NCBI RefSeq assembly: GCF_900187365.1
Contig: NZ_FYDG01000004.1
Location: forward strand, 1 to 64,000
Length of the DNA: 64,000 nucleotides
Source of the DNA: Rhodoblastus acidophilus
GTDB taxonomy: Bacteria; Pseudomonadota; Alphaproteobacteria; Rhizobiales; Beijerinckiaceae
Direction of reading: 5' to 3'
This document shows, one piece after another, positions 37,355 to 49,107 of this stretch; the first letter of the stretch is position 1; every line of letters begins with the position of its first letter. The notes under the pieces are model-generated. The model made no database searches. It saw only the letters and a program-made list of their open reading frames with translations, and was not told the origin of the DNA. A program made the position numbers and the translations under genes.

Positions 37355-39600
37355 CCGACGCCGCGCCGCTGGCGGGATTGCGCCGGCAGATCGGTGGGGT
37401 GCTGAAAAGCCCGAAAGCCGTTTACGCTTCGCTCGCGGGCTTCGCCGGCGTGATCGTCGTTCTGGCCCTGAGCTCGCTGGCCTCGCTGATCGTCGACGGC
37501 TGGATTCAGCGCGACCTCGACCTGCGCTCCACCCTGATCTTCCGCTCGCTCGCCGACAAGGCGGCGCAGCCGGGCGCGGGCGAGCTTCAGGCGTTCAAGC
37601 AGCAAATGCAGAAAGCCGCCGACGAGGAGCGCATTTTCGGCCTCGCCTTCTGCACGCGCGACGGCGCGCTGGCGCTCGCCACGGCCGCCATGCCGCCTGC
37701 GCTCGATTGCGCGGAGTTCTCCGGTTCGAACGCCAATGAGGGGGTGACGCTCAAGATCGACAACGCGAAACTGCGCTTCAACCGCTTCGCGCTCACCCTG
37801 GGCGGAACGCCCGGCCAGTTGCTGGTCGCGCAAAACATCGACGAGGCCCGCAGCGGCCAGCGCGACGCCCTCACCTATGCGACGGCGGCGCTGGCGGCGG
37901 CGGCTTTTGGCTTCGGCTTCCTGGCGGTGGTGGTGACGGCGGCGTTGCGGCGCAGCTGGATGTCGTCGCTGCGCGGCGCCATCGCCGAAAGCATCCGCAC
38001 GACCGAGCCGCCGGTCACCACCGGCCCGGCCGACCGGCGCATCAACGCCCTGCTGGGCGACCTGCGCGTGCGCCGCAAATTCGTCCACGGCATCTACGTG
38101 CGTTGGTCCCCCGAAAGCCTGCGCCAGCTTTTGCTCGACCAATTGCCCGACGCGCAGGTGATGATCGTCTCCAACCGCGAACCCTACATCCACAACCGCG
38201 AGAACGGCGAAATCAAGCTGCAGATCCCCGCGAGCGGCCTGGTCTCGGCGCTGGAGCCGGTGATGCGCGCCTGTCGCGGCGTGTGGATCGCCCATGGCGG
38301 CGGCTCGGCCGACCGAGAAACCGTGGACAAGAATTCGCGCCTGATGGTTCCGCCCGCCGATCCCACCTATGCGCTGCGCCGCGTCTGGCTGTCGGAGGAG
38401 GAGCAGGACGGCTATTATTACGGCCTCGCCAACGAGGGGCTGTGGCCGCTCTGCCACATCGCCTTCATCCGCCCGACCTTCCGCGAACAGGACTGGGCGA
38501 TGTATCGCGCCGTCAACCAGCGCTTCGCCGATGTGGTGGTGGAGGAGGCGACCTGCGAAAACCCGATCGTGCTGGTGCAGGACTACCATTTCGCCCTGCT
38601 GCCGCGCATGATCCGCAAGGCCCTGCCCAAGGCGACGGTGGTGACGTTCTGGCACATTCCCTGGCCGAACGCTGAAACCTTCTCGATCTGCCCGTGGCGC
38701 GAGGAAATTCTCGACGGTCTGCTCGGCTCGTCGATTCTCGGTTTCCACACCCAGTTCCATTGCAACAATTTCTTCGATTCGGTCGACCGCTTCATCGAAA
38801 GCCGGATCGACCACGAGAATTCGCTGGTCTCGTTCGGCGGCCGCGAGACGCTGGTGCGGCCCTATCCGATCTCGATCGAATGGCCGCCGCGCGGGCTGTT
38901 GAACCAGCCCTCGGTCGAGCAATGCCGCATCAACGTGCGCGAACGCTTCGGCCTCGCGCCGGACACGCGGATTGCCGTGGGCGTCGAGCGTTTCGACTAC
39001 ACCAAGGGGATTCTCGACCGCATGCGCGCGGTCGACGACCTCCTGACCATGGCGCCGCAATGGCGCGGCAAGTTCGTGCTGATCCAGGTGGCGGCGCCGA
39101 CCCGCTCCAAGCTCGACGCCTATGCGGCGCTCGAAGCCGAGGCGCGCAATCTGGCCGACGAGATCAACGCCAAATATGCGCGGGACAATTGGAGCCCGAT
39201 CCTGCTGGTGGTGCGCCATCACGAGCCGACCGAAGTGTTCGAACTGTTCCGCGCCGCCGACGCCTGCGTGGTGTCGAGCCTGCATGACGGCATGAATCTG
39301 GTGGCGAAGGAATTCATCGCCGCCCGCGACGACGAGCGCGGCGTGCTGATCCTGTCGAGCTTCGCCGGGGCCGCCTACGAATTGCCGGAGGCGCTGATCG
39401 TCAATCCCTACGACACGCACCAGATGGCTAAGGCTTATGACAGGGCACTGACAATGAGCGAAGAAGAGCAGGCCGGGCGGATGCAGATCATGGTGGCGCA
39501 GATCAGCGAGCGCAACGTCTATCGCTGGGCGGCGCAAATGCTGTTCGACGCCTCATGGCTGCGGCGGCGCGAGAAGATCGTCCCCAGCGACAATCTGTGA
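37351..39600 (+). CDS. otsA: Membrane-anchored trehalose-6-phosphate synthase
   Basis: The 749-residue protein is a fusion. The C-terminal part (about 265-749) is a GT20 synthase with IVSNREPYIHN, VQDYHFALLPRMIRK, the FDYTKGILDR loop and SLHDGMNLVAKEF, making trehalose-6-phosphate from UDP-glucose and glucose-6-phosphate. The N-terminal part has a membrane helix at about 24-48, an extracytoplasmic stretch with two cysteines (LAFCTRD and ALDCAEF), and a second helix at about 172-200 followed by a HAMP-like linker. The ATG at 37351 follows GGAGG and overlaps the GH15 stop. The 3' end overlaps the opposite gene by 48 nt. Confidence 0.93.
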   Translation: MTDAAPLAGLRRQIGGVLKSPKAVYASLAGFAGVIVVLALSSLASLIVDGWIQRDLDLRSTLIFRSLADKAAQPGAGELQAFKQQMQKAADEERIFGLAFCTRDGALALATAAMPPALDCAEFSGSNANEGVTLKIDNAKLRFNRFALTLGGTPGQLLVAQNIDEARSGQRDALTYATAALAAAAFGFGFLAVVVTAALRRSWMSSLRGAIAESIRTTEPPVTTGPADRRINALLGDLRVRRKFVHGIYVRWSPESLRQLLLDQLPDAQVMIVSNREPYIHNRENGEIKLQIPASGLVSALEPVMRACRGVWIAHGGGSADRETVDKNSRLMVPPADPTYALRRVWLSEEEQDGYYYGLANEGLWPLCHIAFIRPTFREQDWAMYRAVNQRFADVVVEEATCENPIVLVQDYHFALLPRMIRKALPKATVVTFWHIPWPNAETFSICPWREEILDGLLGSSILGFHTQFHCNNFFDSVDRFIESRIDHENSLVSFGGRETLVRPYPISIEWPPRGLLNQPSVEQCRINVRERFGLAPDTRIAVGVERFDYTKGILDRMRAVDDLLTMAPQWRGKFVLIQVAAPTRSKLDAYAALEAEARNLADEINAKYARDNWSPILLVVRHHEPTEVFELFRAADACVVSSLHDGMNLVAKEFIAARDDERGVLILSSFAGAAYELPEALIVNPYDTHQMAKAYDRALTMSEEEQAGRMQIMVAQISERNVYRWAAQMLFDASWLRRREKIVPSDNL

Positions 39601-40248
39601 CGGCGCCGCCCAGGCGAGCAGCGCGGCCCGGCCACAGTTCGTCAGGCCGTACACCCCGCGCTCGACGCGCGCGAACCAGCCATAGACGTTGCGTTGCAGG
39701 ATTTTCGCGGCGTCCGGCGCCAGGGATTTCAGGTCGCGCGGACGCTGCGGCGCGTCGGCCAAGGCGCGCGCCACGGCCAGCGCCTGCTGGCGATAGGCGG
39801 TCATCTGCGGTACGCGCGTCGAACCGCCAACGACAGGATCGCCGCGGCGGCGGCGATGCTCCTGAACGATGCGCGACCGCCGTTTGGCGTCGCGACGCGG
39901 TTTCCACGGCGCCGGCTCGACGAGCACCTCGACCCTGTCCCCGGCGAATACCGCAAGCAGGCCGAAGCCGAGCAGCCGGCACAGTTTTCGCACGCGAGAA
40001 TCAGACTCGCGGCCACGCCCGCGCCGCGAGGCGGCCACCGCCAGCCAGACCTCGTCGCAGGCCGACGTCCGATCGACGCCCTGCAACACCAGTTCGAGCG
40101 TAAAACTTTGCTTCAGCTCGCCGATCACCACGCGCTCGGCGGCGTCGCCGCAAACCGCCACCATGTCGCAGCCGCACACCTCGCCCTTGACCTCAAATCC
40201 GAGACTTTCGAGATGGCGCTTGATCGGGAGATAGAGGTCGGTTTCCAA
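39553..40248 (-). CDS. DUF2161 family putative PD-(D/E)XK nuclease-like protein
   Basis: The 231-residue protein matches the DUF2161 family, annotated as a putative phosphodiesterase of the PD-(D/E)XK fold. Asp28 in GCDMVAVC and Glu44-x-Lys46 in VIGELKQSF form the motif. A basic stretch with several Arg/Lys (APWKPRRDAKRRSR) may bind nucleic acid. Its biological role is unknown. Its 3' end overlaps otsA by 48 nt in convergent orientation, an unusual but clean overlap. Confidence 0.8.
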   Translation of the reverse strand: METDLYLPIKRHLESLGFEVKGEVCGCDMVAVCGDAAERVVIGELKQSFTLELVLQGVDRTSACDEVWLAVAASRRGRGRESDSRVRKLCRLLGFGLLAVFAGDRVEVLVEPAPWKPRRDAKRRSRIVQEHRRRRGDPVVGGSTRVPQMTAYRQQALAVARALADAPQRPRDLKSLAPDAAKILQRNVYGWFARVERGVYGLTNCGRAALLAWAAPSQIVAGDDLLAPPQP

Positions 40249-40352
40249 GGTCGGCTCCTGCGGGCGGGAGCAGACTGGCGAGACGCGGTTAACAAGACGT
40301 CAATCCGGTCCCCGCGCGACGAGCGCAGGGCGCGTTCCCGTCGCGGAGATGC

Positions 40353-40377
40353 TGCGCGGGCCGTGCAGGCCCGCGCA
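40353..40377 (-). terminator. Hairpin just past the mosA stop
   Basis: TGCGCGGGCC (40353-40362), GTGCA and GGCCCGCGCA (40368-40377) form a perfect 10-bp stem with a 5-nt loop, 8 nt beyond the mosA stop on the minus strand. It has no T-run, so it may be a processing or stabilising hairpin, or a Rho-associated end, and not a classical intrinsic terminator. Confidence 0.5.
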
Positions 40378-40384
40378 ATGGACG

Positions 40385-41203
40385 TCAGCGCGGCGTGGCG
40401 CCGGCGTGGACGACGGTGCCGACATGCTCGCCGCGCAGGGCGGCGGTGATGCGGCCGGGAACCAGGCCGTTGACCACCTGCACGCGCTGCAGATGCCGCG
40501 CGTTCGGCATGACGTCGAGCAGGGCGCGGTCGATGGGCAGGGGGCCCTTGAGCGCGGCCAGCTCCGCCGCCGAGGTTTCCTTGATGAGCTTGGCCTCGGG
40601 GTTGACGGCGGGGTCGGCGTCGAACACCCCGTCGACATCCTCGACAATGGTGAGGCCGGCGGCGCCGAGGGCGTCGGCCACCAGGAAAGCGCCGACGTCG
40701 GCGCGATGCGTGGGCAGGCGCGAGGTCGGGAATTCGTGGTGGTGATAGGGCGGGAAGGCGCTGCCGACCAGGGCGCGCGCGGCGCCGAAATGGATCGACA
40801 ACTGGTTGGCCACCGTCGGGTGCTCGACATAGGACACGCCGTCGGGCGCCAGCATGGACGCGAGAATATGGCCGTTCTGGCCGGCTTCGCTGGCGGCGAG
40901 CGGCGCCAGCGCGCCCACGGGCAGGCCGAGGTCGAGGCCCACGCCATAGAGATGCCGGGCGCGAACGCCGGCGCCGGTGAGGATCAGCAGCCGGTGCTCG
41001 GGCAGCAGTTTGCGCAGCTCCTCGACAACGGGCAGGATGGCCTGCGCGCCCCGGTCCATGATGGCGCGGCCGCCGATCTTGATGACCTGCAGCCAGGGCA
41101 GCAGACGGATCGGATTGCGGCCGGCGACGGGACGGGTCAGCTCGCTGTCGAGCAGGGTCTGGCGCGCAAGCGGCGAAGCCACATGCTTGATCGTGTTGGT
41201 CAT
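40385..41203 (-). CDS. mosA: Molybdenum storage protein, alpha-type subunit
   Basis: The 272-residue protein belongs to the amino-acid-kinase (UMP-kinase-like) fold and matches the alpha subunit of the Azotobacter vinelandii molybdenum storage protein. Key segments are [12 protein letters not shown] (Lys42 for ATP), [15 protein letters not shown], the PPYHHHEFP histidine cluster at about 151-159 that in the A. vinelandii protein helps anchor polyoxomolybdate, and the C-terminal [11 protein letters not shown]. With MosB it would form a (alpha-beta)3 cage filling with Mo at the cost of ATP. It begins 10 nt after mosB. Confidence 0.93.
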
Positions 41204-41213
41204 GGCGTCCCCC

Positions 41214-42026
41214 TCAATTCGCGGTGATGATGGTGCCGACATGCTCGCCCGCGAGCGCGCGGGTGAGATTGCCGGGCGTGAGGCCGTTGATGACCTGCAC
41301 CTCGCGCACATGGCGGGCGGCCTTGATCAGATCGAGCACGGGGAATTCCAGGATCGAATCGTGCAGGCCCTTGGCCTTCATCTCGTCGACGCTGATTTTC
41401 GGAATGAACACGGCGTTCTTGTCGGTCTTGGGATTGGCGGTGTAGAGGCCGTTTTCGTCCTTAACATAGATCATCTGCTTGCAGCCGAAGGTTTCGGAGA
41501 GCAGGAAGCAGCCGGCGTCGGTGCGATAGGGCGGGATCACCCCCTCGGCCGCCGGGCGCATCCACAGCTGGTAGGGCGGCATGCCGCTGAAGATCACCGC
41601 GTTGACCTGTTCGAGATAGAGCGGCACGGCGGACAGACCGGCGCCGTCCACCAGCGAAATCCCGTGTTTGGCGAGCAGATGGCCGAGCATGGCGGCGTTC
41701 TGGTCGGCCACCGAGGCGCCGAGTTGCGACAGCACGCCGGCCGGCAGGCCAAGGCCAGCGGCGATGGAATAGAGATGGCGGGCGCGGGTGCCGGCGCCGG
41801 TGCCGATCAGCAGCTTGTGATTCTTGCGAACGGCGACGATCTCGTCGACCAGCGGATAGAGTCCGGCGCGGCCGCGGTCGATCACGCTCTGGCCGCCGAT
41901 CTTGATCACCGTGGCGTCGGGAAGAATACGATAATCCGCCGCTTTCTCGGCAGCTTCGAGAAGCTCGGGATCGGTGAGGGAGCGCTGCATCAGCAGGGCC
42001 TCCAGCTCCGTGGTCGTCTGGGTCAT
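41214..42026 (-). CDS. mosB: Molybdenum storage protein, beta-type subunit
   Basis: The 270-residue partner subunit matches the beta subunit of the molybdenum storage protein: [34 protein letters not shown] (Lys42), [39 protein letters not shown] and the C-terminal [13 protein letters not shown]. Residues after [12 protein letters not shown] are nearly identical to the beta type. The ATG at 42026 follows a strong GGAGG. It is the first gene of the operon mosB-mosA. The assignment of the alpha and beta names rests on recalled reference sequences. Confidence 0.93.
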
Positions 42027-42558
42027 TTCAACCCTCCTTCTGGTCGCCGTGATGGGATGGGTGAGGGGGGCATAGCCGACAAGGGTGAACGCAGCAATAT
42101 GAAGCGAGATTTCCGCGAATCAATACTGAGTGATTCCCGAGCGTTGCGCCTAAAAACTATGCAAAACGCTTCAAGATCAGCGGACTTGCTCATTTCAATG
42201 GATATGTAATCGCCGGTCCTGTTGCAAAATTGCATCGTATTTTGCTGAACTACCGCAATGTCCACTATGTTGTCACAATTCCTATTGAATCGCACTCGGG
42301 CCAAGCTCTAGACATTTCTCCTGAAATAACAGCGGCCCAGAGGTGTACGTTTTCGTACAATCTGGACGAAGGCGCCCCTTTGCTTTCGTCCCGGATTGTA
42401 AAGCAACGTCTCGTTCTTGACGCCGCAATACTTGGTCAAGGTCGGGATGGCGCAACACGCCCCTGTTTGTCTCGCATCTGCTGACGACGTCGGCCGCCCC
42501 GGCTCTTCGCCGCGCCTCGCGAAAAATTTTTAACCCTCTCGATAACCGGAGCCTCCCG
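42027..42558. promoter_or_regulatory. Control region between mosBA and TonB receptor gene
   Basis: This 532-nt gap separates the divergent mosB and the TonB-dependent receptor gene. It is distinctly less GC-rich than the flanking genes. Three inverted repeats stand out: GAATCA (42117-42122) with TGATTC (42131-42136), TGCAA (42223-42227) with TTGCA (42230-42234), and TGTACG (42344-42349) with CGTACA (42354-42359). I find no credible ModE-type Mo-box by eye. Short open frames here are not credible genes. Confidence 0.5.
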
Positions 42559-44739
42559 ATGGACACAAAAATCGCAACATTCGCGCTCGCGGGCGCACTG
42601 GCGGCGCCGCAGGCGGCCTTGGCGCAGGATGCGGGCGCCGTTTACAATCTCGGCGAAATCCACGTCACCGCGCCGGGCGAGACGCCGGACGACCGCGGCG
42701 TTCCCGTCGCCACGCCGACGACCCGGGCCGCCGCCAAGGTTCCGTTCCAGTCGGCGACGCCCGCGCCGATCGGCGGCGACACCATTTCCGCCGAAAAATT
42801 CGAGACGTTCGAGAAGGCCACGCTCGACAAGGCGGTGGAGCTGACCCCCGGCGTGATCGCCTATGACATGGCCGGTTCTCGCAACGAGCAGAACATCTAT
42901 GTCCACGGCTTCGACCGCTGGCAGGTGCCGATCCTGCTCGACGGCGTGCGCATCTACCTGCCGGTGGACAATCGGCTCGATTTCGGCCGCTTCCTCACCA
43001 GCAATCTCGCGGAAGTCCAGATTTCCAAGGGCTACGCCTCGGTGCTCGACGGTCCCGGCGCGATGGGCGGCGAAATCAATCTGGTGACGCGCAAGCCCAC
43101 CAAGGCGGTGGAAGGGGAGATCGGGACCGATTTCGATTTTTCACGCAGCGGCTGGTACACGGGTTCGCGCAGCTATGCCCGCGTCGGCACGAAACAGGAC
43201 CTTTATTATCTGCAGGCGGCCGGCGCCTTCAACAATTCGCGCGGCTGGGAATTGCCCGACGCCTATGTCGGAAACGTCCATCAGGGCGAAGGCCTGCGCG
43301 GCAATTCCGCGGCGAAGGACAGGGACATCAACCTGAAAGCCGGTTACACGCCGAACGCCACAGACGAATATTCGATCAACTATCTGCGCCAGGAAGGCCA
43401 GAAGGGCGCGCCGTATAACGTGAGTCCCTACGGCTACTCGCCCTATACGTCGATGGCGCCGAAATACTGGACCTGGCCCTATTGGGACGTGCAGAGCCTC
43501 GCAGCGCTCACCCACACCCAGATCGATCCGACCGCCTATGTGAACACGAAAATCTTCTGGAACCGGTTCGACAACGCGCTGCGCCAGTATTCCGACGCGG
43601 CGCAAACCACGCAGAGCGATGGCAACGCCGGCAATTCCTCCTATCACGACTGGAGCCTCGGCGGCTCGGTCGAGGCCGGCAAGGACATTCTGCCCTGGGA
43701 CACGCTGAAAGCCGCGCTGCACTATCGCCGCGACACCCATAACGAGCAATCTTTCGGCTTCACCAACCCGAAAACCGGCAAACCGGCCGGATGCGTCGCC
43801 AACACGCCCTGCTACGCCTCGCCGGTGATTAACGAATACGAGGACACGTATTCGGTCGCGCTGGAAAACACCGCCCATGTCTGGGACCATGTCGATCTGG
43901 TGCAGGGTTTCTCCTACGAATGGCGCAACACCCTGAAGGCGCAGGGTTTTAATGGCTCCAACGCGCCCTATGGCATGATCTACTACCCCAACAGCTATGC
44001 GGCGGCGCCCAACGGGCAAGTGGCGGCGATCTGGCGTTACAACGACACCGACAAGGTCTATCTGAGCTTCTCGGACCGCACCCGCTTCCCGACGCTGTTC
44101 GAGCGCTACAGCACCAAATTCGGCTACGCCATCGCCAACGCCAGTCTGCAGCCGGAGCGCGCCGCCAATGTCCAGCTCGGTTGGGAGGGCTATGTCGCGC
44201 AGCGCCTGAAGGTCGAGGCCGACGTTTACGGCAGCGACGTGCAGGACATGATCGGCACGGTGCAGAACATCCCGCTGCCCAATGGCAAGACCACCACGCA
44301 GAGTCAGAACATCGGCCATGGCCATATTCTCGGCGCCGACCTGAAGGCGGATTGGGCGGCGACCGACGATCTGGCGCTCGGCGGCCACGCCTCGCTGATC
44401 CATCGCTGGGTCAATTATTCCAAGGGCGTGACGGGGCAGTTGACCGGCGTGCCCGGCGTCGCCGCCTTCTTCTATGCGCAATGGCGGCCCCTGGCCAACG
44501 TGACGCTGACCCCCGACGTGCAGATCGCCGGACAGCGCTGGAGCAGCAATGCGGCGGGCAACGGCTATGTCCAGACCGGCGCCTATGCGCTGGTGAATTT
44601 CAAGGCGGAATGGCAGGCCTATGAGGGGCTGACCTTCACGGCCGGCGCCCGCAACCTCACCGACCGCCTCTATGTCCTGAGCGACGGCTATCCCGAGCCG
44701 GGCCGCACCTTCTATCTCGGCGCCCGCTACACGTTCTGA
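42559..44739 (+). CDS. TonB-dependent outer-membrane receptor
   Basis: The 726-residue protein has a signal peptide (cleavage near AALA/QD), a TonB-box-like N-terminal stretch (NLGEIHVTAP), a plug domain (about 70-180, with QNIYVHGFDRWQVPILLDGV) and a long barrel with strand pairs to the C-terminal YPEPGRTFYLGARYTF, ending in Phe. Such receptors import siderophores, vitamins or metal complexes. Divergent placement beside mosBA suggests a molybdenum-linked ligand, possibly a molybdophore or metal catecholate (inference). It begins after CCGGAG, 9 nt before the ATG. Confidence 0.92.
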   Translation: MDTKIATFALAGALAAPQAALAQDAGAVYNLGEIHVTAPGETPDDRGVPVATPTTRAAAKVPFQSATPAPIGGDTISAEKFETFEKATLDKAVELTPGVIAYDMAGSRNEQNIYVHGFDRWQVPILLDGVRIYLPVDNRLDFGRFLTSNLAEVQISKGYASVLDGPGAMGGEINLVTRKPTKAVEGEIGTDFDFSRSGWYTGSRSYARVGTKQDLYYLQAAGAFNNSRGWELPDAYVGNVHQGEGLRGNSAAKDRDINLKAGYTPNATDEYSINYLRQEGQKGAPYNVSPYGYSPYTSMAPKYWTWPYWDVQSLAALTHTQIDPTAYVNTKIFWNRFDNALRQYSDAAQTTQSDGNAGNSSYHDWSLGGSVEAGKDILPWDTLKAALHYRRDTHNEQSFGFTNPKTGKPAGCVANTPCYASPVINEYEDTYSVALENTAHVWDHVDLVQGFSYEWRNTLKAQGFNGSNAPYGMIYYPNSYAAAPNGQVAAIWRYNDTDKVYLSFSDRTRFPTLFERYSTKFGYAIANASLQPERAANVQLGWEGYVAQRLKVEADVYGSDVQDMIGTVQNIPLPNGKTTTQSQNIGHGHILGADLKADWAATDDLALGGHASLIHRWVNYSKGVTGQLTGVPGVAAFFYAQWRPLANVTLTPDVQIAGQRWSSNAAGNGYVQTGAYALVNFKAEWQAYEGLTFTAGARNLTDRLYVLSDGYPEPGRTFYLGARYTF

Positions 44740-44749
44740 TCGCTTCTTG

Positions 44750-44783
44750 TTGGCGCGCGGCGTTGTCGCGCGCCAATTTCTTT
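44750..44783 (+). terminator. Hairpin with T-rich tail abutting the next ribosome site
   Basis: TTGGCGCGCG (44750-44759), a 7-nt loop and CGCGCGCCAA (44767-44776) form a perfect 10-bp stem, followed by TTTCTTT (44777-44783). It is 10 nt past the receptor stop, and its T-tail runs into the GGAG Shine-Dalgarno of the next gene (44784-44787). It may act as a partial terminator lowering expression of the downstream gene. Confidence 0.65.
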
Positions 44784-44796
44784 GGAGACCAAGAAA

Positions 44797-45294
44797 ATGT
44801 TTGCAAGACTCTGCCTCGCTTCGGCCCTTTTGCTGCTGCCCGCCGCCGCGCAGGCGCAGGAGCCGAACGCCTGCGACAAGTTCAAATGGAGCGTGGCGCG
44901 CGAAAAAAGCTGGTTCGAGGCCGCGCCGCAAAAAGTCGCCTCGGGCGACGCCGCGCAGGTCGGCAAGGGCTATGCCGTCGCGCTCAAGCCGCTCGCTGAG
45001 ACCGCTTTCGCCAAGACGCCGGCGCGGGCGCCCAAGCCTGAAACTTTCGCCGCGCTGCTGACGGTTCCGGCGATCGACAAGCCCGGCCTCTATGACATCA
45101 CGCTGTCCGGCGAAGGCTGGATCGACGCGGTGCAGAACGGCGCGATCGCGCGGACGGTGGATTTCTCCGGCCTGGTCGGCTGCGCCGCCGTGCGCAAGAG
45201 CGTGCGCTACCAGCTGGAGAGCGGCCCGCTCACCGTGCAGATCAGCAATGTCGCGGGCGAGTCAGTCCTTCTCGCCATCGCGCCCGTCGAATGA
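44797..45294 (+). CDS. Small periplasmic protein of unknown function
   Basis: This 165-residue protein has a clear signal peptide (MFARLCLASALLLLPAAAQA, cleaved before QEP). The mature part has two cysteines (NACDKFKW near 29 and VGCAAVRK near 135) and beta-rich segments such as GLYDITLSGEGWID and GPLTVQISNVAGESVLLAI. I do not recognise a family. The ATG at 44797 is chosen because GGAG lies 9 nt upstream. It directly follows the TonB receptor, so it may bind the same ligand in the periplasm (inference). Confidence 0.75.
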   Translation: MFARLCLASALLLLPAAAQAQEPNACDKFKWSVAREKSWFEAAPQKVASGDAAQVGKGYAVALKPLAETAFAKTPARAPKPETFAALLTVPAIDKPGLYDITLSGEGWIDAVQNGAIARTVDFSGLVGCAAVRKSVRYQLESGPLTVQISNVAGESVLLAIAPVE

Positions 45295-45525
45295 CCGGCG
45301 CGGGCGGATGAGCGGCAAGATCTTCAAACAAGATGAATTGTCGTGTTTCCGCCGATACCAACAAATTGTTAGGAGGCCGACGCGCACGACAGGCGTCGGC
45401 CTCCCGTTCACCACAACATGAAGTGTGAGTAAATAGCGGGTTCGCCTGTTGGCATGGAGTTTGCCGGGACTGATTGCGATTGTCGACCGCGTTTCCACGC
45501 GGCGCGGCGCGGGAGGAGCTTTCTC
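45295..45525 (+). promoter_or_regulatory. Leader region with a 12-bp hairpin upstream of DUF2478 gene
   Basis: The 231 nt before the DUF2478 gene include ATCTT-CAAAC-AAGAT (45320-45334), AACAA-A-TTGTT (45360-45370) and a strong stem GGAGGCCGACGC (45372-45383) / GCGTCGGCCTCC (45393-45404) with a 9-nt loop. There is no T-run after the stem. It could be a terminator for the preceding gene by another mechanism, or a structured leader controlling the two downstream genes. Confidence 0.45.
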
Positions 45526-46071
45526 ATGAACTCCAGAGCTTTCGAGTCGGCAAGGGCTTCCATTGTGGCGATCGGCGGCGCGGACAGCGCCGGCAAACGC
45601 GGCCTGATCGACGATTTTCTTCGACGGCGCCGCGCCGAGGGTCTGCGGGTGGTCGGCGTGGTCGAGGCGCGCGATCCCGGCGCAGAGGCCTGCGCCAGCC
45701 GCGCCGTCACCGATCTCGCCACCGGCGCCCGCATCGGCATTTCGCAAAATCTCGGGCCGGGCTCCACCGCCTGCGCGCTGGATCCGGGCGGTCTGGCGCT
45801 GGCCTGCGCCGCCGTGCAACGTTCGTTGCAGCAGGGCGCCGACCTCGTCGTGCTCAGCAAGTTCGGCAAGCTGGAGGCCGGCGGCGGCGGGTTGTGCGAC
45901 GCCTTTTCCGCCGCGCTGGAGATCGGCGCGCCGGTGGTGACCACGCTGCATCCCGTCCTGCGCGAGGATTGGGCGCGTTTCGCCGGCGATCTCGCCGAGG
46001 AGATCGCGCCGGAGCCGCAGGCGCTCGAAAGCTGGTGGCGGGACGTGTCCCGCGCCGCGCGCGCCGCTTGA
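45526..46071 (+). CDS. DUF2478 family protein, possible Mo-related NTP-binding protein
   Basis: The 181-residue protein fits the DUF2478 family, which I know from molybdate transport and nitrogen-fixation neighbourhoods. It has a P-loop-like GGADSAGKRG (17-26) with Arg where Ser/Thr is expected, a conserved-looking ISQNLGPGS, CALDPGGLALACAAV, and DLVVLSKFGKLEAGGGGLCD. The function is unproven; nucleotide binding is inferred. The ATG at 45526 has GGAGGAGC upstream. It is followed after 12 nt by the YqeB-type gene, probably in one operon. Confidence 0.82.
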   Translation: MNSRAFESARASIVAIGGADSAGKRGLIDDFLRRRRAEGLRVVGVVEARDPGAEACASRAVTDLATGARIGISQNLGPGSTACALDPGGLALACAAVQRSLQQGADLVVLSKFGKLEAGGGGLCDAFSAALEIGAPVVTTLHPVLREDWARFAGDLAEEIAPEPQALESWWRDVSRAARAA

Positions 46072-46083
46072 ACGGAGGGAGCC

Positions 46084-46932
46084 ATGCGACCGACCTCCGA
46101 CCTCTACGCCTTCCAGAACCTCCGCCTCGCCGTGGTGATGGGAACCAACGAAATCGCCTCGGCAGTGGCGGTGAAGCTGACCGGCGCCGGCTATCGCGTC
46201 GTGATGGCGCATGACACGTTTCCGCCGGTGATCCGGCGCGGCATGGCGTTTCATGACGCGCTCTACGACGATCCGGTCGAGGTGGCCGGCGTGGTCGGCG
46301 AGCGCGCCGACGGGCTGCTGGCCATCGCCGCCGTGCTGGCGCAGCCGGCGCGGGTGGCGGTGACGCCGCTGTCGCTGATGGAGCTGCTGGCCTATCGCGC
46401 GGCGGACGTGCTGGTGGACGCCCGGATGCAGAAGACGCGGCTCACCCCGGATTTTCGCGGGCTGGCGCGCCTCACCATCGGCATGGGGCCGCGCTTCGCC
46501 GTCGGCGTGAATTGCGACATCGCCGTCGAAACCCGCCCGTCGCGCGCCGGCCTGCTGCTGACCGAGGGCGAGACCGATGCGCCCGATGGCGTGGCGCGGC
46601 GATTGGGCGGCGTCGGGCGCGAGCGTTTCGCCTATTCCGACCGCAGCGGCCTGTGGCGGACCCCGGTCGATATCGGCATGTGGGTTCCCAAGGCGTTCGT
46701 GGTCGGGCGCCATGACGGCATGCCGGTGGCGGCGCCCATCGAGGGCGTGGTGCGCGGCATGGCGCGCGACGGCGTCTACGCCCCGGCCGGGGTGAAGCTG
46801 GTCGAAATCGACCCGCGCGGACGCGACGCCTGCTGGACCGGACTCGACGAGCGCGGGCTGAGACTGGCCAACGCCTGTCTCCAGGCCATATCCGAGCGCC
46901 CGACGGTCGAGCGTCTCGTCGCTTTCGGGTGA
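46084..46932 (+). CDS. YqeB-type molybdenum hydroxylase maturation protein
   Basis: The 282-residue protein resembles the YqeB/EF2563 family of selenium-dependent molybdenum hydroxylase accessory proteins. Matching segments are LAVVMGTNEIASAVAVKLTG (a Rossmann-like start), VIRRGMAFHDALYDD, DVLVDARMQKTRL, LTIGMGPRFAVGVN and, near the end, PIEGVVRGMARDGVYAPAG and VEIDPRGRDACW. Such proteins help insert or modify the metal cofactor of molybdenum hydroxylases. The ATG follows GGAGGGAG. It ends 7 nt from the convergent EamA gene. Confidence 0.8.
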   Translation: MRPTSDLYAFQNLRLAVVMGTNEIASAVAVKLTGAGYRVVMAHDTFPPVIRRGMAFHDALYDDPVEVAGVVGERADGLLAIAAVLAQPARVAVTPLSLMELLAYRAADVLVDARMQKTRLTPDFRGLARLTIGMGPRFAVGVNCDIAVETRPSRAGLLLTEGETDAPDGVARRLGGVGRERFAYSDRSGLWRTPVDIGMWVPKAFVVGRHDGMPVAAPIEGVVRGMARDGVYAPAGVKLVEIDPRGRDACWTGLDERGLRLANACLQAISERPTVERLVAFG

Positions 46933-46939
46933 AGCCCGT

Positions 46940-47806
46940 TCAGCCCTGCGGGCGGCGCCGCGCGGCGATCACCAGCGCGACCCCGCCGAGCACCAGCGCC
47001 GAGGCGCCGACCAGCCGCAGGCCCGGCGTCTCGCCGAGCAGGGCGGCGCCGCCGAGCGCGGCCAGAACGGGCGCGCTCAATTGCACGGTCGCGCCCTGCG
47101 CCGCCGTCAGCCCGCGCAGCGCGGCGTACCACAGGGCATAGCCCAACCCCGAGGCCGCCGCCCCCGACAGCAGCGCCAGCAGCAGCCCTTGCGGGGAGGC
47201 CGTCAGCGAGAATGGCGCGGCCAGGGCGAGCAAGGCGAGTCCCATCGGAACGGCGCGGAAAAAATTGCCGGCGGTGGCGGCGAGCGGATCGGCGCCGCCG
47301 CGCCCCAGCAGCGAATAGACGCCCCAGGCGACGCCCGCCGCCAGCATCAGCCCGGCGCCGAGCGGGGGCGGGGCGGCGGCGCCCGGCGCGAGCAGCCAGA
47401 TCAGCCCGGCCAGGGCCAGCAGGAAACCGAGCGTCTGCCAGCGGGTGAAACGCTCGCCGCGCCACAGCCCCGCGCCGATCATGGTCGCCTGCACCGCGCC
47501 GAACAGCAGCAGCGCCCCGGTTCCGGCAGGCAGGCCGCGATAGGCCAGCGAAAAGCCCGCCGCATAGGCGAACAGCGCGAAAGCCGCGCGCCAGCTTCCC
47601 TGCGCCGCTCGAAGCTTGCCCGACAGCGCCAGCAGCAGCCAGAGCATGGCCGCGCCGGAGGCGAGGCGAACGAAGGTGAACGAGGCCGCATCCATGGCGC
47701 CGGCGGCCAGCGCGGCGCGGCAGAGCAGGGAGTTCGCCGCGAAGGCGACCATGGCGAGGGCGGTGAGGCCGAGGGTTTTGGCGTCGGGTCGGTGCGTTGC
47801 GCTCAT
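46940..47806 (-). CDS. EamA/DMT family transporter
   Basis: The 288-residue membrane protein has ten predicted helices in two EamA repeats: LGLTALAMVAFAANSLLCR starts the first and PPLGAGLMLAAGVAWGVYSLL the second. This drug/metabolite transporter family exports amino acids, nucleosides or metabolites; the substrate is unknown. The ATG at 47806 gives the usual short cytoplasmic N-terminus. The gene follows the acyltransferase by 44 nt, so both may share a transcript. Confidence 0.9.
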   Translation of the reverse strand: MSATHRPDAKTLGLTALAMVAFAANSLLCRAALAAGAMDAASFTFVRLASGAAMLWLLLALSGKLRAAQGSWRAAFALFAYAAGFSLAYRGLPAGTGALLLFGAVQATMIGAGLWRGERFTRWQTLGFLLALAGLIWLLAPGAAAPPPLGAGLMLAAGVAWGVYSLLGRGGADPLAATAGNFFRAVPMGLALLALAAPFSLTASPQGLLLALLSGAAASGLGYALWYAALRGLTAAQGATVQLSAPVLAALGGAALLGETPGLRLVGASALVLGGVALVIAARRRPQG

Positions 47807-47850
47807 GCGGCACCTTGCCGCAGCGCGCAAGCGCCCGCAAGCGCGGCGAC

Positions 47851-49107
47851 TTATGCGGCCGAAGCCAGTTGGGGCTCTTCGCCGGTTTTGGGGGCGGGCG
47901 CCGCCCGACAGCGCCGCGACAGAGCGACGGCCCAGGCGTCGATCCGGCTGAATGGCCGCGCCAGCGCGAAAGTGGCGGCGACGGTCAGCAAGCCCGCCGC
48001 CAGCCCGGCGCCGGCGACGCCAAGCTTCGGGGCCAGCGCGATCAGAACGAACGAGCCCAGGCCCATCAGGATCGGCCAATGGACCAGATAGATCGGGAAG
48101 GACAGCCGCCCCAGCGCGACAAAGGCCGGCTTTGTCAGCAGGCGGCTCAACGGCGCCGAACAGGCGAGGCCGACGAAGATGAAGATCGCGCCATAGATTT
48201 TTTGCGGAAACGCCTGACAGGGCAGGCTGAACAGCGACAGGTCGCACAGCGCGCTTGTGACGGCGAAACGGCCGAACTCCGGGTATCGCCCGAACTCCTC
48301 TTGCACGCAGAGCAGGCCACCCAGCGTCAGCAGAGCGATGACCGCCGTGCTCGGCAGATAGGGCGCGCGCCCCGCCTTGCGCCGCGCCTGAAGCGCAAGG
48401 GCGAGCGCGTGTCCCGCCAGAAAGCAGATGAAATGCGACCGGAACATCAAGACGGCGAGAGCGCTGAGCCATAGCGGCCAGAATTTCACCTTGCGCGAGG
48501 CCAGGACCAGCCCCAGCACCAAAACCGAGCCCTGCAATTCCACGCTGAGCGACCACAACGGCGCGACATAGGCGTGACGGACCGATTCGGCGAAGCCGGG
48601 CGCCGCGAACGGATAGCTGCTGTCATAGCCCAGAAACAGCGGGTCGAGCGCCGCATCCTTGAGCCAATAGGCGAGACCGGCCGGCGGGCTCCAGACGTGG
48701 GTCAGCCAGTTCGAGCCGGTCAGGCGGCCTGCCTCCTGTTGCAGGCCGCCGAAGGCTAGCGCGAAGGGCGCCGCCAGCAGGCAGGCGCAAAAGGCCGGAA
48801 TGAACAGCCGCACGACCCGCGCGCGCAGCGCGGCCAGCGGGCGGTCGGCCTGTCTCTGGAAGGCGAAGGTCAACACGAGGCCGCTGAGCACGAAGAATAT
48901 ATAGACGGCGCTATAACCGTCCCAGAGCAGGAACAGCGGCGAACCGTGCAGGATGCGCGCCCAGGCCGGTTCTGTCCCGAGAAACACCACAGCCGGGAAG
49001 AACGCGCTGAAAACATGCAGCAGCAGAACTTGCAGCGCCGCAAGGCCGCGAATCGATTCCAGATGCGTGAGACGGCCCGAGTCCGAACCGGCAAAATCCT
49101 GCGTCAT
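47851..49107 (-). CDS. Acyltransferase 3 family membrane protein
   Basis: The 418-residue polytopic protein has the N-terminal signature LTHLESIRGLAALQVLLLHVF (conserved Arg and His), YIFFVLSGLVL and RARVVRLFIPAF. About ten helices follow, with LGRLSFPIYLVHWPI near the C-terminus, also conserved in this family. Like the other two acyltransferases in the window it probably O-acylates a surface polysaccharide or lipid. It is divergent from rpsB. Confidence 0.9.
   Translation of the reverse strand: MTQDFAGSDSGRLTHLESIRGLAALQVLLLHVFSAFFPAVVFLGTEPAWARILHGSPLFLLWDGYSAVYIFFVLSGLVLTFAFQRQADRPLAALRARVVRLFIPAFCACLLAAPFALAFGGLQQEAGRLTGSNWLTHVWSPPAGLAYWLKDAALDPLFLGYDSSYPFAAPGFAESVRHAYVAPLWSLSVELQGSVLVLGLVLASRKVKFWPLWLSALAVLMFRSHFICFLAGHALALALQARRKAGRAPYLPSTAVIALLTLGGLLCVQEEFGRYPEFGRFAVTSALCDLSLFSLPCQAFPQKIYGAIFIFVGLACSAPLSRLLTKPAFVALGRLSFPIYLVHWPILMGLGSFVLIALAPKLGVAGAGLAAGLLTVAATFALARPFSRIDAWAVALSRRCRAAPAPKTGEEPQLASAA

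Follow-up and report, generated by a model that had tools for sequence, protein, structure and literature searches.

How does a bacterium that stores molybdenum bring the metal across its outer membrane? The question is raised by a locus in a stretch of 64,000 nucleotides from Rhodoblastus acidophilus (contig NZ_FYDG01000004.1, positions 1 to 64,000; hereafter the window), where mosB and mosA, the genes of the molybdenum storage protein (MoSto), lie divergent from the gene of a TonB-dependent receptor, itself followed by genes for a small exported protein, a DUF2478 protein and a YqeB-like protein. Iron, haem, B12, nickel, copper, zinc and manganese are known cargoes of TonB-dependent import, and molybdate is usually held to enter via porins and ModABC. 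We propose that the window probably contains a locus by which a Rhodoblastus-like diazotroph acquires and stores molybdenum (Mo), where the receptor would pull in a Mo complex. A preliminary description of this DNA had put forward such an import; the molybdenum link of the receptor is borne out by its gene neighbours, by ModE-type operators and by its co-occurrence with mosAB.

Relatives of the window receptor were gathered by similarity alone and came from 21 loci of the same order or class, 10 loci of a plasmid collection (10 of 23 matches were opened, the remaining ones being from the same genus) and 18 loci of genomes that contain mosAB, the Rhodoblastus sphagnicola and Azospirillum loci included. 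A Mo marker gene (ModE, DUF2478, YqeB, ModD, MoaA or MosAB, within 7 kb) is found near the receptor in 24 of these 49 loci outside the window (7/21 in the order and class set, 6/10 on plasmids and 11/18 in mosAB genomes), and these three counts do not change when MosAB is dropped as a marker; loci L130-L132, taken from two genomes of a single genus, do not count as independent. The same markers occur near none of 60 control receptors examined with flanks of about 7 kb, some of these stretches overlapping; the controls come from the window genome and from five other genomes of the survey in which ModE stands next to the related receptor. Chance does not account for the association of such receptors with Mo genes, and the window locus itself has MosAB, DUF2478 and YqeB-like genes within 7 kb of the receptor. 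The relatives are also a phylogenetic unit: in a tree with 58 controls (those of the 60 that had an open reading frame usable for the tree and promoter tests), 34 relatives form a single separate clade with a support of 1.0 and the window receptor falls inside it. These 34 are the order/class and plasmid sets together with the receptors of the window, of R. sphagnicola and of Azospirillum, the last two being the only ones drawn from the 18 loci of mosAB genomes. Among the residues specific to the clade are R108-N109-E110 of the plug and H388, R390, H394, R507 and F510 of the barrel.

Other neighbours recur in the clade. A MolABC-like ATP-binding cassette (ABC) transporter has its FecB and FecC genes beside the receptor in Escherichia coli, Paracoccus, Shinella, Telmatospirillum and others. 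At one locus (L236, 9884-11374) a DUF2478 domain is fused to DUF4213/DUF364 heavy-metal chelation domains, adjoining a related receptor and FecB-FecC genes. Genes for DHOR-type di-haem oxidoreductases, which would stand for a redox step, are found near related receptors in L226-L232, L235, L241, L242, L117 and L129; in L117 a solute-binding protein precedes DHOR, and similar sequences occupy that place in L228, L230 and L231.

Regulation points in the same direction as neighbourhood. Three patterns for the ModE operator, written as regular expressions from the consensus, match 11, 17 and 9 of 50 promoters of the receptor relatives vs 0, 1 and 0 of 58 control promoters. A matrix built from seven of these related-promoter sites scores at least 12 in 31/50 relatives vs 3/58 controls, and at least 16 in 25/50 relatives (the seven training loci included) vs 0/58 controls, the top control reaching 15.5. 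When the training loci are set aside, 24 of 43 relatives still reach 12 (mean of shuffled sequences, 1.8) and 19 reach 16 (shuffled, 0.5), the latter figure being 19 by the looser scan and 18 by a stricter one. As a positive control, the matrix was run on the mod region of E. coli K-12, where its top site lies immediately 5' of modA. With the window counted in, 36 of the 50 loci show at least one of two features, a Mo gene or a box scoring at least 16. The same matrix applied to the storage genes scores at least 10 in 28 of 78 mosB upstream regions (e.g. L069, L059, L021 and L062), the receptor controls, which are not matched to this set, giving 7/58; because of these scores, mosAB itself may be under ModE control in many species.

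One example is in E. coli, where the receptor (33% identity to that of the window) is the last gene of an operon ordered FecB-FecCD-ATPase-methyltransferase-ModD-receptor. A near-perfect ModE box, CGATATATATGTAAATATATAGCG, directly precedes the first gene (L122, 1353-1376), ModD scores 504 against a model cut-off of 179, and the receptor gene is matched in 2102 of 5426 complete E. coli genomes. A profile of six binding proteins of this kind finds MolA (HI_1472, 3psa) at 2.5e-27, third of 59 matches, after 4pag and 4ovk, which are named just as periplasmic binding proteins. Identified by gene order, the operon is the prrA-modD-yc73-fepC cluster and the receptor is PrrA; the ModE box in front of it suggests an uptake of molybdenum or tungsten rather than iron. 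The Proteus locus has FecB, FecC, ModD and the receptor in the E. coli order, with ModE boxes, and on a Pseudomonas aeruginosa plasmid the receptor comes first, also with a ModE box, and then a small molybdopterin-fold protein, moaA and the nar genes. With a confidence slightly better than even, we propose a wider reading, in which a widespread and previously unrecognised clade of TonB-dependent transporters, run by ModE in many Proteobacteria and including PrrA, would be the entry of molybdenum, as a chelate or oxomolybdate, through the outer membrane, and in which Rhodoblastus would have joined this clade to MoSto, bringing capture, storage and allocation into a single locus.

How tight is the tie to mosAB? 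We surveyed 80 named mosB loci over up to 8 kb per side, some contigs ending earlier (phmmer, E 1e-3), as the preliminary description had called for in search of an adjacent TonB receptor. A homologue of the window receptor is close to mosB in only two of them, R. sphagnicola and Azospirillum endophyticum, and a general receptor profile finds a TonB receptor of any kind in nine. Direct adjacency of the receptor and mosAB is rare. In R. sphagnicola the receptor, DUF2478 and YqeB-like genes keep the window order and the small gene is missing between receptor and DUF2478; in A. endophyticum the relative lies about 6 kb from mosAB, with a ModE gene immediately upstream of mosB. That the receptor might lie mostly away from mosAB in other genomes had been named beforehand as grounds for giving up the idea; this is literally what is seen, and the idea stands nonetheless because the receptor often adjoins other Mo genes instead. 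Genome-wide, the association is stronger: a receptor relative (E 1e-60) is present in 17 of 48 mosAB genomes searched vs 16 of 297 genomes of the order and 6 of 385 of the class, both backgrounds including the window genome (Fisher tests, 4e-8 and 2e-13, to be read with the caveat that genomes are not independent and that the mosAB set has a different taxon mix). This run covered the first 50 of the 80 mosB loci, corresponding to 48 distinct genomes. Within the order, mosB occurs in two of 297 genomes and both have the receptor, one being the window genome and the other having the genes on separate contigs.

The 4.7 Mb window genome (74 contigs) has a single mosB, 15 places matching the barrel family of the receptor and a ModE gene on the same contig, about 250 kb from the locus. 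It also encodes three nitrogenase alpha subunits, Mo, V and Fe-only, on contigs C53, C38 and C39 (NifD 861 bits vs a cut-off of 654, VnfD 977 vs 823, AnfD 1067 vs 874). On contig C38, 7-12 kb from vnfD, lies a set made of a phosphonate-type ABC transporter, a DUF364/DUF4213/DUF2478 protein and an ATP-grasp-like protein (L116, 7412-12702), a candidate vanadate or molybdate importer; relatives of this set adjoin the mosAB locus in R. sphagnicola (L001, 9821-15956).

Several observations weigh against our interpretation of the receptor. Within the available flanks, 78 of the 80 mosB loci have no homologue of it, and 31 of the 48 mosAB genomes have no match at E 1e-60; mosAB is present without a receptor relative in all 14 Bradyrhizobium, two R. 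acidophilus and one other Rhodoblastus searched, so that MoSto frequently occurs without a receptor of the window type. In the order and class set, no Mo gene lies within 7 kb of the receptor at 14 of 21 loci, some of which reach the end of their contig, and FecBCD-type ABC transporters are also found near controls (FecC in 26/60). The window promoter has no ModE box (best score 6.2), nor has that of R. sphagnicola (4.9), both being at control level; moreover, the canonical Mo-box with its 8-base spacer is found nowhere in the window genome within one mismatch, despite the ModE gene, and two mismatches give five places vs ten for the reversed control. Therefore, the locus is either outside ModE control or served, in this lineage, by a different operator. 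Finally, PMC1890555 and PMC12928451 call prrA-modD-yc73-fepC a possible iron uptake system. This last point leads to a first alternative, an ordinary iron-siderophore or haem receptor that lies next to mosAB by accident. The rarity of the adjacency would agree with it, as would the best curated (NCBIfam) subfamily scores of the window receptor, which are of haem and siderophore types and all under cut-off. We nevertheless consider it unlikely: Mo genes accompany about half of the relatives and none of the control receptors, and ModE-type operators precede the relatives and hardly ever the controls. Regulation by iron, the other observation announced as damaging to the idea, was checked weakly, through Fur boxes, whose scores do not pass the 95% level of shuffled sequences in the window or in the E. 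coli, P. aeruginosa and Proteus relatives, E. coli equalling that level (13/19).

The receptor could also be concerned with metal oxyanions and not chiefly with molybdate, serving vanadate, tungstate or several of them, which we find a shade less likely than an iron or haem cargo. The VnfD of the window genome and the position of the phosphonate-type ABC set, 7-12 kb from vnfD here and next to mosAB in R. sphagnicola, speak for such a role, and ModE and MolA-type proteins respond to tungstate as well. However, MosAB, ModD, ModE, MoaA and nar are molybdenum genes, and the E. coli, Proteus and P. aeruginosa relatives belong to species not known to have a V-nitrogenase. An organic cargo, either a molybdopterin-type cofactor or the substrate of a molybdoenzyme, whose receptor would be induced alongside molybdenum enzymes, is very improbable in our view. 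It would suit the P. aeruginosa plasmid, with its small molybdopterin-fold protein, moaA and nar genes, and the YqeB-like proteins, which are named for molybdenum hydroxylase maturation (family model TIGR03309); against this, the neighbours vary between loci, being FecBCD, DHOR or the small protein together with a MauG-type di-haem peroxidase (CCP), no catabolic pathway is common to the loci among the genes tested, and MosAB and ModE point to a metal.

For a receptor that imports a Mo complex, we infer the ligand, the direction of flow and the parts played by the small, DUF2478 and YqeB-like proteins as follows. When molybdate is scarce, the receptor would take a rare and bulky Mo complex across the outer membrane, possibly molybdate on a catecholate or another chelator, or an oligomeric oxomolybdate. 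Where a FecB/FecC transporter is encoded beside the receptor, as in E. coli, Paracoccus, Shinella, Telmatospirillum and others, it would then carry the cargo inward. No inner-membrane transporter of the FecBC/MolABC-like kind was found in the window, so this step must be encoded at a different locus, whose ABC transporter would move the cargo across the inner membrane. MosAB would next store molybdate as polyoxomolybdate, as is known of MoSto, and the DUF2478 and YqeB-like proteins may act in the cytoplasm, in the release, sorting or insertion of Mo. If this is correct, the ModE-controlled clade is a dedicated, energised outer-membrane route for molybdenum, which would explain how diazotrophs of Mo-poor soil and peat supply MoSto and nitrogenase and would reassign the prrA-modD cluster of E. 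coli from iron to molybdenum.

All six genes of the arrangement first described are present at the place given for them (Table 1). MosA and MosB are AA-kinase-fold subunits, each nearest its own Azotobacter vinelandii MoSto chain in a comparison with Protein Data Bank (PDB) sequences; the closest named relative of MosB is that of R. sphagnicola, and the MosA start was taken as 41203, which fits MoSto, the longest open reading frame beginning at 41311. Both the Plug and beta-barrel domains of the receptor score above their Pfam cut-offs. The DUF2478 assignment is safe with respect to a gathering cut-off of 22.3 bits. The last gene, a YqeB-type maturation protein in the preliminary description, matches the YqeB model TIGR03309 at 148.9 bits, under its curated cut-off of 220; 'YqeB-like' is therefore the safe name.

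Table 1. Features of the molybdenum-linked locus (positions in the window).
Feature	Position	Strand	Basis or remark
mosA, molybdenum storage protein alpha subunit	40385..41203	-	2ogx_A E 3.3e-135 over residues 2-271; AA_kinase PF00696
mosB, molybdenum storage protein beta subunit	41214..42026	-	2ogx_B E 2.1e-152; 94% identity to R. sphagnicola
Divergent promoter region mosB / receptor	42027..42558	.	palindrome TGTACGTTTTCGTACA at 42344-42359
TonB-dependent receptor, Mo-linked clade including the E. coli prrA-modD cluster receptor	42559..44739	+	PF07715, PF00593; clade support 1.0
13-pair hairpin, receptor/small-gene gap	44749..44777	+	possible attenuator or mRNA stabiliser
Small exported protein, signal peptide	44797..45294	+	reading of the open reading frame and family alignment (two invariant Cys, invariant Trp)
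DUF2478 protein	45454..46071	+	PF10649 159 bits; start 45454 or 45529
YqeB-like protein	46084..46932	+	TIGR03309 148.9 bits, under cut-off 220

DUF2478 is near mosAB in five of the 80 loci and YqeB-like in two, and both recur near related receptors, which fits a role in molybdenum handling. The small protein, whose start was read as the ATG at 44797 (the listed open reading frame starts at a TTG, 44782), has zero Pfam or NCBIfam matches at E 0.01, and its structure model, made for the window protein and one relative, is poor (mean pLDDT 48.5, mostly strands). Across the 16 sequences of its family, two cysteines and one tryptophan are invariant, and a relative stands beside the receptor in 11 of the 21 order and class loci; a CCP gene is near in 8 of 14 related loci that have the small gene. 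It had been presented as a periplasmic Mo binder, a claim that we find unsupported: it belongs to no known family, is missing between receptor and DUF2478 in R. sphagnicola, has CCP for a neighbour in those 8 of 14 loci, and in Rhodopseudomonas sp. B29 follows mosA on a contig without a receptor. In that genome (L042, 2064-4403) the small gene comes directly after mosB-mosA, and the receptor homologue is missing from the 6.7 kb contig. Because many relatives have both genes, the small protein is perhaps a partner of the receptor or a substrate of the di-haem peroxidase. The frequent company of CCP calls to mind MbnP and MbnH, a pair made of a small protein next to a MauG-like di-haem protein; the window differs from this kind of metallo-mystery pair, its small protein matching no model and no CCP or DHOR match lying near its receptor. 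Elsewhere in the window genome (contig C29; L115, 6480-10626), a distant relative of the small protein shares its locus with DUF2478 and a di-haem peroxidase, and a second nifE lies about 8 kb away. The preliminary interpretation is partly supported: for TonB-dependent import of molybdenum, the receptor clade gives more support than adjacency to mosAB would by itself.

What drives the window promoters is a separate matter. In the mosB/receptor intergenic region, no ModE, sigma-54 or Fur site rises above control level. The palindrome TGTACGTTTTCGTACA is the sole TGTAC-N6-GTACA in the 4.7 Mb genome and fits the site forms of both NifA and VnfA. Control by NifA and RpoN was considered and rejected: the TGT-N10-ACA at 42344 is present, but the best intergenic -24/-12 matches score 6/12, and the palindrome is missing from the R. 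sphagnicola intergenic stretch. Across 79 mosB upstream regions (78 loci and the window), TGT-N10-ACA sites occur in nine vs 3.2 expected and RpoN sites at threshold in none, 1.65 being expected. GTAC-N6-GTAC is the VnfA/AnfA motif, and control by these regulators was likewise set aside, the motif being missing from the stretches around the nif, vnf and anf genes of the window genome itself. No riboswitch or known RNA was detected in 39000-48000 at E 0.5, and six terminator-like sites, vs 4.9 expected, were counted in the region of the 13-pair hairpin.

Our literature search found no Mo-specific TonB receptor among the matches listed, nor any paper joining MoSto to TonB-dependent import or the ModE regulon to TonB; most subscription journals and the regulon databases were outside it, so earlier notice is possible. 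For DUF2478, work on archaeal plasmids was the sole match. The main text of a MoSto paper (PMC6448029) does not mention TonB, and in the accessible part of the Rhodobacter capsulatus work on MorABC and NifA (PMC6925177), consulted for a Mo-regulated receptor, TonB is likewise unmentioned. PMC8602904 describes in P. aeruginosa a separate molybdate route through the type VI secretion system, ModA and IcmP, unlike the window receptor.

How does the locus compare with known systems? With A. vinelandii MoSto it shares both full-length subunits and the adjacent mosB-mosA order; however, a homologue of the window receptor is missing near A. vinelandii mosAB (L033), and the best match of that genome (32% identity) lies at another place, where DHOR and ATP synthase genes adjoin it. 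An IcmP-like imelysin identity for the gene between that receptor and DHOR was dropped for want of a Pfam match. OprC (copper), MnoT (manganese) and CntO (metal-pseudopaline) have the receptor superfamily in common with the window, OprC and CntO giving weak partial matches; we know of no molybdenum cargo established for any of the three. MolABC (HI1470-1472) is the vitamin B12-type molybdate importer of Haemophilus influenzae, and the binding proteins near several related receptors resemble MolA (3psa), whereas the window locus has no such transporter. The ModE regulon (modABC) shares its operator type with many related receptors, in contrast with the window promoter, which is without it. A further parallel to the window is E. 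coli PrrA: it differs by an identity of about 33%, by its own FecBCD transporter and by a stretch without mosAB, yet it belongs to the clade of the window receptor and stands with ModD in an operon preceded by a ModE box.

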